This document shows positions 1-48,115 of a stretch of DNA of 64,000 bases, in pieces. Origin of the DNA: Marinobacter sediminicola. Its GTDB lineage: Bacteria > Pseudomonadota > Gammaproteobacteria > Pseudomonadales > Oleiphilaceae. The stretch covers positions 1 through 64,000 of the forward strand of contig NZ_JAVIXR010000005.1 of assembly GCF_031157525.1 (NCBI RefSeq). Direction: 5' to 3'. Within the stretch, counting starts at the first letter, position 1; each line of letters starts with the position of its first letter. The position numbers were made by a program, and so were the translations under genes. Under the pieces are notes generated by a model. That model saw nothing but the letters and a program-made list of their open reading frames with translations, was not told where the DNA came from and made no database searches.

Positions 1-69
1 TCCAAAACCCTGCGGAGCCATGGATGGCGGAGCGGAGCCTACAAGGACGTATTCACGGCGTGTTTTGGA
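1..69 (+). repeat. Palindromic repeat element, copy A (left arm truncated by window start)
   Basis: This is the right part of a dispersed element seen four times in the window. The conserved 53-nt centre is at 9-61, bounded by CCAAAAC (2-8) and GTTTTGG (62-68). The bases after 69 (AAGCTCAACCCCGCGG) resemble the reverse complement of the arm of copy B, so the right arm probably continues to about 85. Its partner lies outside the window, so pairing cannot be checked here. The centre carries several substitutions relative to copies B, C and D, making this the most diverged copy. It lies about 100 nt before the vasH start codon, so a vasH transcript starting upstream would carry it in its leader. 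Confidence 0.8.
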
Positions 70-14763: not shown

Positions 14764-15465
14764 TTATAGCTCACGGGCGTTCCAGCGATAACCCATGCCG
14801 TAGGCGGTCTGGATACTGTCAAAGGCGCTGTCGATCTGCAGGAATTTGCTGCGGATGCGTTTGATGTGGGAGGTGACGGTGTTGTCATCCAGGTGCGTGT
14901 TGGCGGCCTCCATCAGTTGATCGCGACTGCGCACGTGGCCGGGGTGCTGTACGAGTGAGTGCAGCATCCAGAATTCGGTCACGGTGAGGTCTATGGCGTT
15001 GTCATCCCAGGCTACGGTCATGCGATCCACGTTCAGGTCGAGGCGACCACGTTTCACGATTTCATCCGGTTTTTGCAGGGCTTCTGCCCAGGCGTCTGCC
15101 CGGCGCAGCAGGGCGGTCACTCTTGCCAGCAGGTGTTCTATGCTCATGTCTTTGGTGACGTAGTCGTCCGCGCCCAGGCGCAGGCCGTGTACTGAGTCTA
15201 TGTCGCTGTCGCGGGCGGTGAGGAAGATGATGGGCAGGGTTGCGGATAGCGAGCGCAGGTCCTGGCACAGGGTGAAGCCGCCTTCGGGCTCATTGCCGAG
15301 GCCGACGTCGATGATGGCGAGGTCGGGGAGGCTTTGGCGCAGGACCTGCCAGGCGGAGGAACGATCACCGTATGTGGATACGCGATAGCCGCGGCGTTCG
15401 AAGGCGGCGCGGTAGTTGTCGCGGATGGCGGGTTCGTCCTCTATCAGGACCAGATGCTTTTTCAT
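14764..15465 (-). CDS. pdsR: Response regulator of the dedicated sortase system (OmpR family)
   Basis: The 233-residue protein has an N-terminal receiver with the acidic pair in LVLIEDEP, the phospho-acceptor aspartate in LAIIDVGLG (an insertion NEPEGG follows), and the conserved lysine in ADDYVTKDMS. The C-terminal winged helix (about 140-233) carries LTVTEFWMLHSLV and TVTSHIKRIRSKF, typical of OmpR-type DNA recognition. It likely controls the divergent target-sortase genes, whose start lies 193 nt away. No clear Shine-Dalgarno sequence precedes the ATG. I could not identify operator repeats in the shared gap with confidence. Confidence 0.9.
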   Translation of the reverse strand: MKKHLVLIEDEPAIRDNYRAAFERRGYRVSTYGDRSSAWQVLRQSLPDLAIIDVGLGNEPEGGFTLCQDLRSLSATLPIIFLTARDSDIDSVHGLRLGADDYVTKDMSIEHLLARVTALLRRADAWAEALQKPDEIVKRGRLDLNVDRMTVAWDDNAIDLTVTEFWMLHSLVQHPGHVRSRDQLMEAANTHLDDNTVTSHIKRIRSKFLQIDSAFDSIQTAYGMGYRWNAREL

Positions 15466-15658
15466 GGTTTTTGGCTGTTGTCCGTGGGTGTTGGGGTCTA
15501 TTTAAACACGGGAGGCGTTTAGAACAAGGGTAGCGTGCGGTGTTGCCATAATTCATCATTTTTTGTTCGTGGAATGTTTGATTCTGCCATGGGGGTGCCT
15601 TTTTGGGTTGGTGAAATGGCTGTGTCTGATTTAGTCATGTAGCCAAAGGATTATTGCC

Positions 15659-17929
15659 ATGATGTTTTCTTCCCTTTCATCTAAACATAGTGCCTTCCCG
15701 TTTAGTCTGAACCCGCCCTCCGGTGAGGTTGAGGCCCCCTCCAAAACACGCTGTGAATACTTCCCTGTACGCTCGGCTCCGCCATCCATGGCTCCGCACG
15801 GTTTTGGAGGGGGCCTCAACCTCACCGGAGGGCTCAGTGCTCGCCAGGGGCAGCGGGTGGTGCGTTTTATGGAGGGGGTTAGCTTGTGGATGGCTATGTT
15901 GCTGGTTTTGTTTGTGCAGCCGATTTATGCAGAAGCCAACACCGGCAATGAAGATTCCGCAGGAACGCTGCACTTTGTGGACGGTAAAGGGCAGTGGCAG
16001 GAACCCGCTTTGGTGCTGGGGAGTGACTTTGATGTTCGGGTTAGTGGGCTGATTTCAGACAGTAAACTGGTGCGGACGTTCAAGAACACGAGTGATGACT
16101 GGCGAGAAGGAGTGTTTGTTTTTCCGCTGCCGGAGAAGGCCAGTGTTTACGGGCTGACCATGAAGGTGGGGGAGCGCACGATTGTGGGGGAGGTTCAGCC
16201 CCGCGAAGAGGCGAAGAAGACTTATGAAGCGGCTCGGGATTCCGGGCGGCATGCGGCGACGGTTGAGCAGCAGCGGCCGAATTTGTTTACCACTCGGGTG
16301 GCGAATATTCCTCCGGGGGCTGAGGTGAGTGTGGAGCTCAGTTATCAGCAGTTGGTGAGTTATCGGGATGGGGTGTTTGAGTTGAGTGTGCCGACGACGC
16401 TAACACCCCGGTATATGCCGGGTGAGCCTTTGGCGGTGGCGCCGCAGCAGTGGCAGGGCGGTTGGGCAGTGCCTACTACCGAGGTGCTGGATGCGGATGC
16501 GATCAGTCCGTTTACGGTGGATGTGGCGGATGTTGCAGCGGACAGTCACAGAGCTTCAGTCAAGTTCACGATTGATGCCGGGCTGCCGTTGGCGCAGGTG
16601 TTCAGTCCCAGCCATCAGGTGGCGACTGAGCAGGATGGTCAGGTGGTGATGGTTGAGCCACAGGCGGGTGACATTGTGATGAACCGGGATTTCGTGATTC
16701 GTTGGCAGCCGTTTGCGGGGCAGGAGCCGGGCGCGGCTGTGTTCCATCAGCAGTGGGAAGGGGAAGATTATTTGTTGGCGATGCTGGTGCCGGGGCGGGC
16801 GGGTAAAACCCGTTTGCCACGGGAGCTTACGTTTGTGATTGATACCTCGGGCTCTATGGCTGGGGAATCCATTCGGCAGGCGAGAGAAGCGCTGCAACTG
16901 GGGTTGGAAACCTTGGCACCAGGTGATCGGTTCAATGTGATTCAGTTCAATTCACAGCCTCACGCCTTATTTATGCAGCCGGAAATGGCCACAGCCAATA
17001 ATCTGGCCCGAGCCCGTCAGTATGTGAGTGGGTTGAAAGCTGACGGTGGAACGGAGATGGCTTCAGCGCTGACCTTGGCTTTGCAGGGGCAAGGCAAGAG
17101 CACAGGTGAGCGGCAGGAAGACGCAGTAAGAGTGCGTCAGGTTGTGTTTATGACGGACGGTGCCGTTGGCAATGAGTCGGCGCTGTTCAGCCAGATTCGT
17201 CGCCAGTTGGGTGATCACAGGCTGTTTACCGTGGCAATAGGGTCGGCGCCTAATATGCACTTTATGCGGGAGGCTGCGCGGTGGGGGCGTGGTAGCTATA
17301 CCTCGGTGCAGGATCTGGCCGATATGAGCGGTCCTTTGGCCAGGTTGTTTGCAGCCATGGAAGCGCCGGTGATGACGGATATTCAGGTTACCTGGCCGGG
17401 GCAGTCTACAGCGGCAATGGAAGACAGCTTTCCGCAGCGGCCCGGTGATTTGTTTCAAGGTGAGCCCTTGTTGCAGGTCGTGCGAGGAGTGGCACCCGCC
17501 GGTGAGTTGAGCGTGTCTGGCCGATTGCCGGGTGGTGGAAGCTGGCAGCAAAGCCTGGATTTGCAGCAGGCGGCTTCAGGTACTGGGCTGAACCGTTACT
17601 GGGCGCGGGAGAAGATCGACAGCTTGCTGGACGACGCTCGGATAGAGGGACAGGAGCCGGATAAAGAGAGAATCACCAAGTTGGCGGTTGCCCACAACCT
17701 TATGTCGCCCTATACGAGCTTTGTGGCGGTGGATAAAACGCCGGTGCGGGCTGCTGAAAGCGCTTTGTTGAAAGATAATCTGCCTACGCTGCTACCTGCA
17801 GGAAGTCAGCCGGGCATGGCGCGCTACCCGCAAACCGCAACCTTTGCGCCTCTGATGATTGCCTTGGGTTTGCTTGGTTTGATGCTTTCGCTCGCAATTG
17901 CCATGCTTCAAAGACGGGTATACCCATGA
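15659..17929 (+). CDS. Dedicated sortase target protein with VIT and VWA domains; repeat copy B within its 5' frame
   Basis: This is the secreted substrate of the neighbouring sortase. Read from 15659 it has 756 residues: a signal-like hydrophobic segment (WMAMLLVLFVQPIYA, about 77-91), a VIT domain (about 100-230), and a VWA domain starting at FVIDTSGSMAGES (near 392) with its metal-binding DxSxS. A sorting-like motif YPQTAT (near 723) precedes a C-terminal membrane segment and basic RR. The ATG at 15659 has AAAGGA eight bases upstream, but then palindromic repeat copy B supplies residues about 20-58 ahead of the signal peptide. Alternative starts in the same frame are 15869 (near a weak GGTGG) and 15890 (GGAGGGG eleven bases before); these would leave the repeat in the leader. 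The body is certain; the start is not. Confidence 0.85.
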   Translation: MMFSSLSSKHSAFPFSLNPPSGEVEAPSKTRCEYFPVRSAPPSMAPHGFGGGLNLTGGLSARQGQRVVRFMEGVSLWMAMLLVLFVQPIYAEANTGNEDSAGTLHFVDGKGQWQEPALVLGSDFDVRVSGLISDSKLVRTFKNTSDDWREGVFVFPLPEKASVYGLTMKVGERTIVGEVQPREEAKKTYEAARDSGRHAATVEQQRPNLFTTRVANIPPGAEVSVELSYQQLVSYRDGVFELSVPTTLTPRYMPGEPLAVAPQQWQGGWAVPTTEVLDADAISPFTVDVADVAADSHRASVKFTIDAGLPLAQVFSPSHQVATEQDGQVVMVEPQAGDIVMNRDFVIRWQPFAGQEPGAAVFHQQWEGEDYLLAMLVPGRAGKTRLPRELTFVIDTSGSMAGESIRQAREALQLGLETLAPGDRFNVIQFNSQPHALFMQPEMATANNLARARQYVSGLKADGGTEMASALTLALQGQGKSTGERQEDAVRVRQVVFMTDGAVGNESALFSQIRRQLGDHRLFTVAIGSAPNMHFMREAARWGRGSYTSVQDLADMSGPLARLFAAMEAPVMTDIQVTWPGQSTAAMEDSFPQRPGDLFQGEPLLQVVRGVAPAGELSVSGRLPGGGSWQQSLDLQQAASGTGLNRYWAREKIDSLLDDARIEGQEPDKERITKLAVAHNLMSPYTSFVAVDKTPVRAAESALLKDNLPTLLPAGSQPGMARYPQTATFAPLMIALGLLGLMLSLAIAMLQRRVYP
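15715..15833 (-). repeat. Palindromic repeat element, copy B
   Basis: Arms 15715-15747 and 15801-15833 are perfect reverse complements over 33 bases, enclosing the conserved 53-nt centre (15748-15800). Read on the minus strand, the centre matches the orientation of copies A and D. Its centre differs from that of copy C by one base. Beyond the perfect arms, pairing resumes after a four-base bulge (CTGA on the left, its complement on the right). The element contains two direct GGCTCCG repeats. It lies inside the open frame of the sortase target gene. Confidence 0.92.
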
Positions 17930-18570
17930 GCCGTTCGCTGCTGTTGTTGATCACAAGCTCTGCCTTGTTGCTGGTATTCGGGCTTTGGGTACCGATCAAG
18001 GCTGTTGTGGCTCAGGAACTGCTGGAAATTGCCTGGGCTGAGAGCCAGGCCAGGCAAACTGAATCACGGCCCTGGCCCTGGGCAGATACCTGGCCGGTGG
18101 CAAAATTGTCGATGCCGGAGCTTGGTGATTCGATGATCGTGCTGGCAGGTGTTCATGGGGAGAGCCTGGCCTTCGGGCCGGGGCAAATGATGGGTGGCAG
18201 CGGCTCTGGGAGTGCGGTTGTTATTGCCGGCCACCGCGATACCCACTTTCGGCCTCTCAAACACCTGGAACCTGGCAATGAGCTTCGGTTGCAAGGCCGG
18301 GACGGGCGCTGGCAGGGCTACCGGGTGAGTGCAACAAGAATTGTGGATAGCCGTTCGGAATTCATCGATACTCATAAGTTACCTGCGGGCACTCTTTTGC
18401 TGGTTACCTGTTATCCCTTCGATAGCATGGATGCGGGTGGTCCCCTACGTTATGTGGTGGAGGCCCATGCAGACGATGCAGCCCGAGTAGCCGGTGTAGA
18501 AGGTGCTCATAGCCAAGTCCGGTATAGTCCGGCCGTATTGGATAAAATTGACACTGTTGCAGGCCTATAA
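17926..18570 (+). CDS. Class GN (marine proteobacterial) sortase
   Basis: Sortases are membrane-tethered cysteine transpeptidases that cut a C-terminal sorting signal and anchor the protein. This 214-residue enzyme has an N-terminal membrane segment (LLLLITSSALLLVFGLWVPI) and the catalytic triad: His103 in AGHRDTHF, Cys162 in LLVTCYPF and Arg175 in GPLRYVVEA. Its ATG overlaps the stop of the target gene (ATGA), so enzyme and single dedicated substrate are made together. The kinase and regulator for the system run divergently just upstream. Identification is from motifs plus this neighbourhood. Confidence 0.93.
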   Translation: MSRSLLLLITSSALLLVFGLWVPIKAVVAQELLEIAWAESQARQTESRPWPWADTWPVAKLSMPELGDSMIVLAGVHGESLAFGPGQMMGGSGSGSAVVIAGHRDTHFRPLKHLEPGNELRLQGRDGRWQGYRVSATRIVDSRSEFIDTHKLPAGTLLLVTCYPFDSMDAGGPLRYVVEAHADDAARVAGVEGAHSQVRYSPAVLDKIDTVAGL

Positions 18571-22180: not shown

Positions 22181-22289
22181 GGAGGGTGAGGGGAGGCCCT
22201 TCCAAAACACGCTGTGAATACCTCCCTGTACGCTCGGCTCCGCCATCCATGGCTCCGCACGGTTTTGGAAGGGCCTCCCCTCACCCTCC
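22181..22289 (-). repeat. Palindromic repeat element, copy C
   Basis: Arms 22181-22208 and 22262-22289 are perfect reverse complements over 28 bases around the conserved 53-nt centre (22209-22261). The right arm ends at the base before the stop codon of the minus-strand gene (CTA at 22290-22292 on the plus strand). The left arm starts 15 bases after the rhomboid stop. Pairing appears to resume beyond a few-base bulge at GCCAG/CTGGC. There is no T-run, so any terminator role would rest on the hairpin alone. Confidence 0.93.
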
Positions 22290-47603: not shown

Positions 47604-47710
47604 GCAGCGAGGCAGAACCTTCTCCAAAATCGTGCGGAGCCATGGATGGCGGAGCCGAGCGTACATGGATGTATTTACAGCGTATTTTGGAGAAGGTTCT
47701 GCCTCGCTGC
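47604..47710 (+). repeat. Palindromic repeat element, copy D
   Basis: Arms 47604-47630 and 47684-47710 are perfect reverse complements over 27 bases around the 53-nt centre (47631-47683). The inner arm bases are CCAAAAT/ATTTTGG, a paired change from the CCAAAAC/GTTTTGG of the other copies. It is in the same orientation as copy A. It sits between divergent genes, 70 nt from the helicase start and 27 nt from the DUF2237 start. Confidence 0.93.
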
Positions 47711-47737: not shown

Positions 47738-48115
47738 ATGGAAACTGAAAAATCGATAAACGTACTTGGGGAAAAGCTGGAAACATGTAGCACTGATCCG
47801 GAAACCGGCTTTTACCGGGATGGCTGCTGCAATACAGGGCCGGATGATCACGGATCGCATACTGTATGTGTTGTGATGACCGCCGAGTTTTTGGAGTTCT
47901 CCAAGGCTCGCGGGAACGATTTGAGTACGCCGGTTCCTGCGTTCGGGTTCCCCGGCTTGAAAGCCGGAGACGGCTGGTGCCTGTGTGCGGTTCGCTGGCA
48001 TGAAGCTTTTGAGGCGGGCAAGGCCCCTCGGGTGCGGTTGCGTGCAACGCATCAGGCGGCGTTAGCGCACTGTGATCTTGGTGATCTGAAGTCTCATGGA
48101 ATAGACCTCAGTTAA
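47738..48115 (+). CDS. DUF2237-family protein
   Basis: The 125-residue soluble protein matches DUF2237: NVLGEKLETCSTDPETGFYRDGCCNTGPDDHGSHTVCVVMT, then GWCLCAVRWHEAFEAGKAPRV. Several conserved cysteines are present (a CC pair and CLC), suggesting metal or redox chemistry, but no function is established. GGAGAGAG lies just before the ATG. Only 27 nt separate it from repeat copy D, so the promoter must lie in or beyond the repeat. Its stop overlaps the tmcA start. Confidence 0.82.
   Translation: METEKSINVLGEKLETCSTDPETGFYRDGCCNTGPDDHGSHTVCVVMTAEFLEFSKARGNDLSTPVPAFGFPGLKAGDGWCLCAVRWHEAFEAGKAPRVRLRATHQAALAHCDLGDLKSHGIDLS

Follow-up and report, generated by a model that had tools for sequence, protein, structure and literature searches.

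Described repeat families and the Marinobacter element

The RNAs RsmY and RsmZ present GGA in hairpin loops, with several sites per RNA. CsrB is described in the same terms in the available part of PMC7652899. Rickettsia palindromic elements (RPEs), as outlined in parts of PMC2229807 and PMC10969869, are palindromic repeats of 100–150 nt that add a peptide to a gene by in-frame insertion; the MITE-like ERIC, NEMIS/Correia and RUP repeats of bacteria, in extracts of PMC2229807, are about 100–200 nt long, form stem-loop RNA and are mostly intergenic, some with open frames; and REP/RAYT sequences are short extragenic palindromes in many copies (extract of PMC3733652). A repeat that shares features with each of these was analysed in Marinobacter sediminicola, where one copy (copy B, 15715–15833) lies inside the gene of a marine sortase target at 15659–17929. 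The DNA was the first 64 kb of a 235-kb contig (NZ_JAVIXR010000005.1, positions 1 to 64,000), and this whole stretch is referred to as the window.

Compared by description only, the Marinobacter element differs from RPEs in belonging to another genus, in being mostly intergenic, and in its copy-specific arms and conserved ANGGAN hairpins; its palindromic in-frame behaviour is similar, and the family is distinct in host, setting and core. Unlike CsrB, RsmY and RsmZ, it is dispersed in tens of copies, and each short copy has two sites along a single, very long stem. A long copy-specific stem and a conserved loop domain separate it from REP/RAYT sequences, and identity with these was rejected with 0 Y1_Tnp matches in the genome, the control search being positive in 5 of 14 genomes including E. 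coli. Unlike ERIC, NEMIS/Correia and RUP repeats, its outer arms vary by copy, and the ANGGAN hairpin pair is not mentioned for those families in the extract of PMC2229807. The literature searched described no small interspersed repeat with a covarying CsrA-type hairpin pair, which is not proof of absence, as the search did not extend to most subscription papers.

Copy B within the sortase target gene

From its sequence, copy B was interpreted, with a probability of about 0.62, as an in-frame copy of an interspersed structured element of Marinobacter whose family RNA would bind CsrA/RsmA when the core strand is transcribed. The following features were used.

15645–15650, plus strand: ribosome-binding-site-like AAAGGA, 8 nt 5′ of ATG 15659; a motif of AAGGA or GGAGG type is present in 28/28 same-genus orthologues
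15659–17929, plus strand: TIGR03788 marine sortase target with VIT and VWA domains, 756 aa (open frame, profile match, orthologues, codon-position test)
15659–15712, plus strand: 18 codons from the start to the element, with third-position excess among carriers
15715–15747, plus strand: copy B arm 1, outer 25 nt copy-specific, inner 8 nt (TCCAAAAC) common in the family
15748–15800, minus strand: copy B conserved core, 53 nt; the strand that looks functional is minus and runs antisense to the sortase target
15758–15769, minus strand: copy B hairpin 2, UAC-AGGGAA-GUA (ANGGAN hexaloop)
15781–15792, minus strand: copy B hairpin 1, GCC-AUGGAU-GGC (ANGGAN hexaloop)
15801–15833, plus strand: copy B arm 2, perfect complement of arm 1
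15869–15871, plus strand: internal ATG (FMEG), proposed as an alternative start in an earlier note on this DNA
15884–15937, plus strand: hydrophobic signal-peptide stretch LWMAMLLVLFVQPIYAEA, judged from sequence without a signal-peptide program

The encoded protein scored 779.5 bits against TIGR03788 (cut-off 551.65). A second ATG directly follows the first, at 15662, and a further internal ATG lies at 15890. ATG 15659 with its upstream AAAGGA, the two internal ATGs and copy B ahead of the signal peptide were all located where the earlier note had placed them. Copy B is a perfect 33-bp inverted repeat (100% complementary) with 53 nt separating the arms. For positions 15710–15838 the predicted fold energy was about −89 kcal/mol and the folding z-scores of the two strands were −10.0 and −10.7, with 0 of 200 shuffles equally stable; in the predicted fold of 15625–15900, AAGGA was unpaired, the start codon lay within a long-range helix and the big hairpin began 56 nt past the ATG. 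A scan of the window with Rfam gave nothing at gathering threshold. A permissive scan of 15600–15950 returned 11 matches, all under their gathering scores and taken as chance; the best three were microRNA-precursor families (43.3, 38.2 and 37.7 bits against gathering scores of 90–110).

The earlier note had remarked that the frame stays open through the hairpin. This was confirmed, the frame being open over 15659–17929, and as a distinguishing sign it carried less weight, since 864 of 1338 frames (65%) were open across the whole element over 223 copies, which makes an open frame by itself weak evidence. The CsrA-like strand of copy B is antisense to the sortase target and directed towards the divergent response regulator gene; the target mRNA therefore contains the reverse complement, which has no ANGGAN, and no CsrA sites are added to it. 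The simplest reading of copy B is thus that of a spacer, tolerated and presumably translated in frame, which places about 40 residues before the signal peptide.

Core hairpins and likeness to CsrA/RsmA sites

For the stem set, 276 sequences were gathered, from which 21 were dropped for too little flank and 32 for a weak stem score, leaving 223 copies; 19 of the 32 weak-stem rows were planctomycete loci, and neither these nor L242, L252 and L264 are among the 223, a further six planctomycete loci having been excluded beforehand. An earlier copy set had lost 11 of 122 rows. On the core strand, hairpin 1 reads GCC-ANGGAU-GGC and hairpin 2 UAC-ANGGAN-GUA, with a GGA-to-GGA distance of 23–25 nt. 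ANGGAN was present in hairpin 1 of 222/223 copies and, with at least three closing pairs, in hairpin 2 of 213/223, where the closing pairs covaried (UAC/GUA 147, CAC/GUG 60, CCC/GGG 5, GAC/GUC 1). Because the search patterns fixed hairpin 1 and, in one case, part of hairpin 2, a fair test is offered only by the second hairpin of those copies that were retrieved through hairpin 1 and nothing else: in these, A-N-GGA-N occurred in hairpin 2 of 138/139 copies, compared with 0/139 in the reverse complement and 1007 of 6950 shuffles (14%).

A position profile was made from the 140 of 223 copies that share one register. The two N's of hairpin 2 were the most variable of the 53 core positions (major base 49% and 61%). 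Within the subset of 61 in-register copies retrieved through hairpin 1 only, variability again peaked at one N (major base 41%), with A and GGA at least 96.7% fixed and the closing pairs at least 93.4% fixed. Core pair 0-26 covaried row by row (CG 90, UA 46, GC 1; 137/140 Watson-Crick), as did core pair 1-25 (GC 114, CG 17, UA 9; 140/140 Watson-Crick).

In the available part of PMC7652899, the CsrA consensus from systematic evolution of ligands by exponential enrichment (SELEX) is RUACARGGAUGU with ACA and GGA invariant, and RsmE recognises an ANGGAN hexaloop. Judged by sequence, the core-strand hairpin pair appears to match both. GGA was found in the loop of short ANGGAN hairpins, as in CsrA/RsmA-binding RNAs; no membership of a known Csr/Rsm Rfam family was found, the Rfam scans of the loci giving nothing at gathering threshold except a tRNA. 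The M. sediminicola genome gave one csrA match and no match to the RsmY or RsmZ models. We consider that the element is probably a mobile structured element whose RNA binds CsrA/RsmA. Copies whose core strand is transcribed, as would often be so close to the ends of genes, would yield RNA that binds a CsrA/RsmA dimer at the two sites 23–25 nt apart and may then act as a dispersed binding or sequestering site. A bolder version is offered tentatively, as conceivable though doubtful: the tens of dispersed copies would form a genome-wide CsrA/RsmA sponge that replaces recognisable RsmY/RsmZ, with arms rewritten by template switching and the two CsrA loops fixed, and with a similar GGA-loop element in planctomycetes.

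Evolution of the arms

Stems were perfect in 114/223 copies. The 6135 stem pairs of the 223 copies, read on the core strand, comprised 5973 Watson-Crick, 97 G·U, 14 A·C and 51 other pairs, and 136 distinct arms gave 62 G·U against 6 A·C among 3781 pairs. An A·C on one strand reads as G·U on the opposite one; the 7:1 ratio therefore points to the folded core strand, as RNA or single-stranded DNA, as the form in which such pairs are tolerated. For orthologous copies, 78 of 187 candidate pairs were used, of which 42 were independent and 31 of those had homologous arms. In these 31, double Watson-Crick changes numbered 85, of which 34 were transversions; single changes numbered 38 (22 G·U, 3 A·C, 13 other), and a further 4 changes were double but of another kind. 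All 42 independent pairs together showed 202 double Watson-Crick, 57 single and 18 other double changes. The many paired transversions and few intermediates fit arm-to-arm copying by replication template switching, which has been described, according to the available parts of PMC8794818 and PMC8604942, both in RNA stems and in genic inverted repeats. The arms may stay complementary partly in this way.

Other origins of the arms were considered. Insertion into pre-existing palindromes was dropped as the main origin because the arms share a positional consensus (for example G at stem position 16 in 93/105 copies) and orthologous copies change pairwise. Wholesale swapping of arms among copies was weighed because some orthologous pairs showed no greater similarity than randomly chosen ones (random mean 13.4 of 28); neighbouring intergenic sequence was also diverged in those pairs, and hence no burst of arm change is claimed.

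The same data bear on whether the element is selfish DNA, in which a folded single DNA strand matters for transposition and the ANGGAN loops are recognition marks for an enzyme and not CsrA sites. The high copy number and the differences in presence and absence between species suit this explanation, and a folded single DNA strand accounts for the strand asymmetry as well as RNA does. It is made rather doubtful by the loop bases that vary, which are those left free in ANGGAN, by the covarying closing pairs, and by a genome search that matched no Y1 (RAYT-type) transposase, other recombinases not having been searched for.

Orthologues and the start codon

Of 33 same-genus genes that scored above the family cut-off, 28 could be read at their locus and 5 were without a locus; the same-order loci L064 and L084 were excluded from the count. 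The element was present at the sortase target in 5/28 orthologues (L081, which is the copy analysed here, L089, L091, L092 and L093) and absent from 23/28. Every element-free orthologue (23/23) carries an upstream ATG, located −219 to −258 from the profile start and preceded by a motif of AAGGA or GGAGG type, which makes 15659 the likely ancestral start; five of the orthologues (L067, L070, L071, L076 and L077) have no other ATG between the upstream start and the hydrophobic stretch. Element-free N-termini differed at codon positions 1/2/3 by 49/34/80 (8 chosen pairs, 257 codons, p 2e-5). Within carriers, over the 18 codons before and 12 after the element, the counts were 4/3/10 for L092-L093 (p 0.03), 8/6/15 for L081-L092 (p 0.03) and 5/4/8 for L091-L089 (p 0.17). 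For 10 non-independent pairs taken together, the element itself gave 66/74/45, without excess at third positions. With coding-type change outside the element and none within it, the host frame appears to be selected and the repeat-encoded residues look like passengers.

The earlier note had proposed that about 40 repeat-encoded residues were added ahead of the signal peptide, and the upstream start of 23/23 element-free orthologues together with their coding-type N-terminal evolution supports this. Its alternative, that carriers are translated from ATG 15869 (or 15890) and that the element is merely a 5′ leader hairpin, is considered unlikely. It draws on the very stable stem and on the distribution of the internal ATGs: one at the 15869 position occurs in 5/5 carriers and 2/23 non-carriers (L085 and L090, with L068 having one a codon away), and one at the 15890 position in 4/5 carriers and 0/23 others. 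These could mean that a secondary start arose after insertion, but the five carrier species are related, and in none of them did a simple scan for motifs detect a ribosome-binding site ahead of 15869. AAAGGA and the upstream ATG are kept in 5/5, as is the frame, and the frame has survived an 84-nt expansion (L089 carries the long-form core, 84 nt longer), with third-position excess outside the element in 2/3 contrasts. None of the element-free orthologues started at the equivalents of 15869 or 15890 without upstream coding similarity, the outcome by which the earlier note would have abandoned added residues.

One insertion before the carrier species (at least five) separated is the simplest origin for the element at the sortase target. 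Ribosomes would then read through the copy B hairpin, and about 40 passenger residues would lengthen an n-region of the protein that is long already. In orthologues lacking the element, the flanking sequence has diverged too far for the insertion junctions, and hence any target-site duplication, to be placed. At the sortase target, L089 and L091 do not differ in the 18 codons 5′ of the element, but over the 12 codons 3′ of it L089 is nearer to L081 (8 differences) than to L091 (17), a pattern that suggests recombination in or near the element. In one genome the TIGR03788 homologue lies in three pieces, one with an internal stop (G049:C1:3815824-3817708), and is apparently broken.

Distribution and genomic settings

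The short form of the element is about 110–120 nt long. Copies share the conserved core and an inner 7–8 bp; the arms beyond are peculiar to each copy over about 20–30 bp, most often reaching ~28 bp, and as terminal inverted repeats they are thus copy-specific in the outer part and shared in the inner 7–8 nt, with true ends not fixed. Weak CCAAAG-like motifs recur in the position profile just beyond both stem ends (e.g. L010, L013, L024, L027) and are possibly further element sequence. In the M. sediminicola genome the core 22-mer gave 32 matches at ≤2 mismatches, with at least 2 copies counted twice because they were split between contig ends with matching arms (C2/C37, C7/C36). Several of contigs C1, C2, C6, C7, C8 and C36 of G000 begin inside an element, which indicates that the palindromes break assembly. 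The other copies in the window are as follows.

1–69, plus strand: copy A core, truncated at the contig end, with the other arm matched at the end of contig C2
22181–22289, minus strand: copy C (arms 22181–22208 / 22262–22289), between convergent genes
47604–47710, plus strand: copy D (arms 47604–47630 / 47684–47710), upstream of the gene at 47738

The orientation of the element upstream of orthologues of the gene at 47738 is the same in L302, L303, L304 and L309 and the reverse in L307, L310, L312 and L313, which could reflect inversion of the spacer or separate insertions; in L305, L306, L308 and L311 it was not within the 250 nt shown. The longer core pattern was matched in 21/25 same-genus genomes and 0/13 others. 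Among 369 genomes of the class, which we take to be Gammaproteobacteria, the 22-mer was found in the M. sediminicola genome only, the sample containing no other Marinobacter. The matches listed (at least 117 stretches) comprised 108 from Marinobacter and 9 contigs of planctomycete or Kuenenia metagenome-assembled genomes (MAGs). The core-plus-arms element was confined to Marinobacter in what was sampled.

Settings were surveyed for the 157 of 223 copies with enough flank. Copies lay between tandem genes (48 sense, 34 antisense), convergent genes (46), divergent genes (22) and at edges (6), and 1/157 contexts was wholly inside a predicted open reading frame (ORF), as judged by an approximate codon-usage caller that is blind to N-terminal cases like copy B. 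The excess of convergent over divergent settings (46 vs 22) is what would be expected of ordinary bidirectional terminators or REP-like hairpins without a specific protein partner, which we regard as quite improbable: termination does not call for a 53-nt core to be conserved or for two loops to be nearly invariant, and there was no T-majority position just beyond the stem. The earlier note's comparison with RPEs applied to in-frame insertion into a conserved protein gene, found at the sortase locus only, and failed for the family, in which frequent insertion into coding genes genome-wide was not found, so that the likeness is restricted to this locus because the family is nearly always intergenic. 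An RPE-like parasite selected for in-frame insertion into proteins, as the in-frame copy B and the mostly stop-free frames through the element might suggest, is accordingly disfavoured as most improbable, given the single wholly intragenic context and the absence of a strong coding score on both sides of the element in all 40 of the top-scoring through-open frames listed.

Long form and planctomycete loci

A long form gave pattern matches in 41/90 Marinobacter genomes and none in that of M. sediminicola. In the 30 loci read (L314–L343) three further hairpins interrupt the core at hairpin 1; 22/30 received an automatic in-core flag, the rest showing the same flanks by eye, and 27/30 parsed into three segments. 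The long form was associated also with L089 and L261. One new hairpin, GGGCWGGCC-ANGGAN-GGCCWGCCC, has compensating changes in its stem, its loop having been part of the search pattern, and another has the loop GACGCAGGAGC in 29/30. Five long-form loci scanned with Rfam gave no family at threshold.

The 22-mer GCGGAGCCATGGATGGCGGAGC occurred in planctomycete or Kuenenia loci L155, L168, L178, L196, L212 and L220, and also in L242, L252 and L264. In the six such loci examined it lay within flanks quite different from those of Marinobacter, as part of a different repeat; folding of the L212 copy gave a long outer stem enclosing hairpins, one of which, in addition to the shared hairpin, has GGA in its loop. 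Five planctomycete or Kuenenia genomes (G425–G429) had 8–31 matches each at ≤3 mismatches, including variants with an exchanged stem around an unchanged AUGGAU loop. The presence of the 22-mer in planctomycete MAGs means that the hairpin motif itself is not confined to Marinobacter.

Neighbouring genes

The sortase target is neighboured by the following genes.

14764–15465, minus strand: response regulator TIGR03787 (proteobacterial dedicated sortase system), divergent from the sortase target
17926–18570, plus strand: class GN sortase, by TIGR03784 match, adjoining the sortase target

The histidine kinase of the locus matched TIGR03785 over its length, slightly under the cut-off (586.8 of 612.2 bits).

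Weighing the proposed CsrA/RsmA element

Several points weigh against copy B being a translated copy of an element whose RNA binds CsrA/RsmA. Hairpin 1 was the search pattern throughout, and the longer core pattern also fixed ACA-N-GGA-N-GU, at ≤2 mismatches. When only the 61 in-register copies retrieved through hairpin 1 are considered, the other N of hairpin 2 (59% major base) ties with the covarying pair 0-26. The G·U excess may equally reflect a folded single DNA strand or transcription-linked mutation, and between tandem genes the sense and antisense orientations (48 vs 34) showed no clear bias. At the sortase locus itself, a stem as stable as that of 15710–15838 could hinder translation, and the ATG shared by all carriers at the 15869 position would permit an internal start. 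The stem of L089 is partly decayed (22/33 pairs) and yet its frame is kept, so that the structure seems not to be essential at this locus.

Implications for the family and its hosts

The sortase copy illustrates the tolerance of a very stable hairpin between a start codon and a signal peptide. The family as a whole provides hundreds of natural long stems with concerted arm change, which helps to separate template switching from compensatory selection. If the RNA of the element binds RsmA, every new copy carries a regulator-binding site to a new gene, and a mobile repeat would have a direct route to rewire or titrate a global post-transcriptional network.

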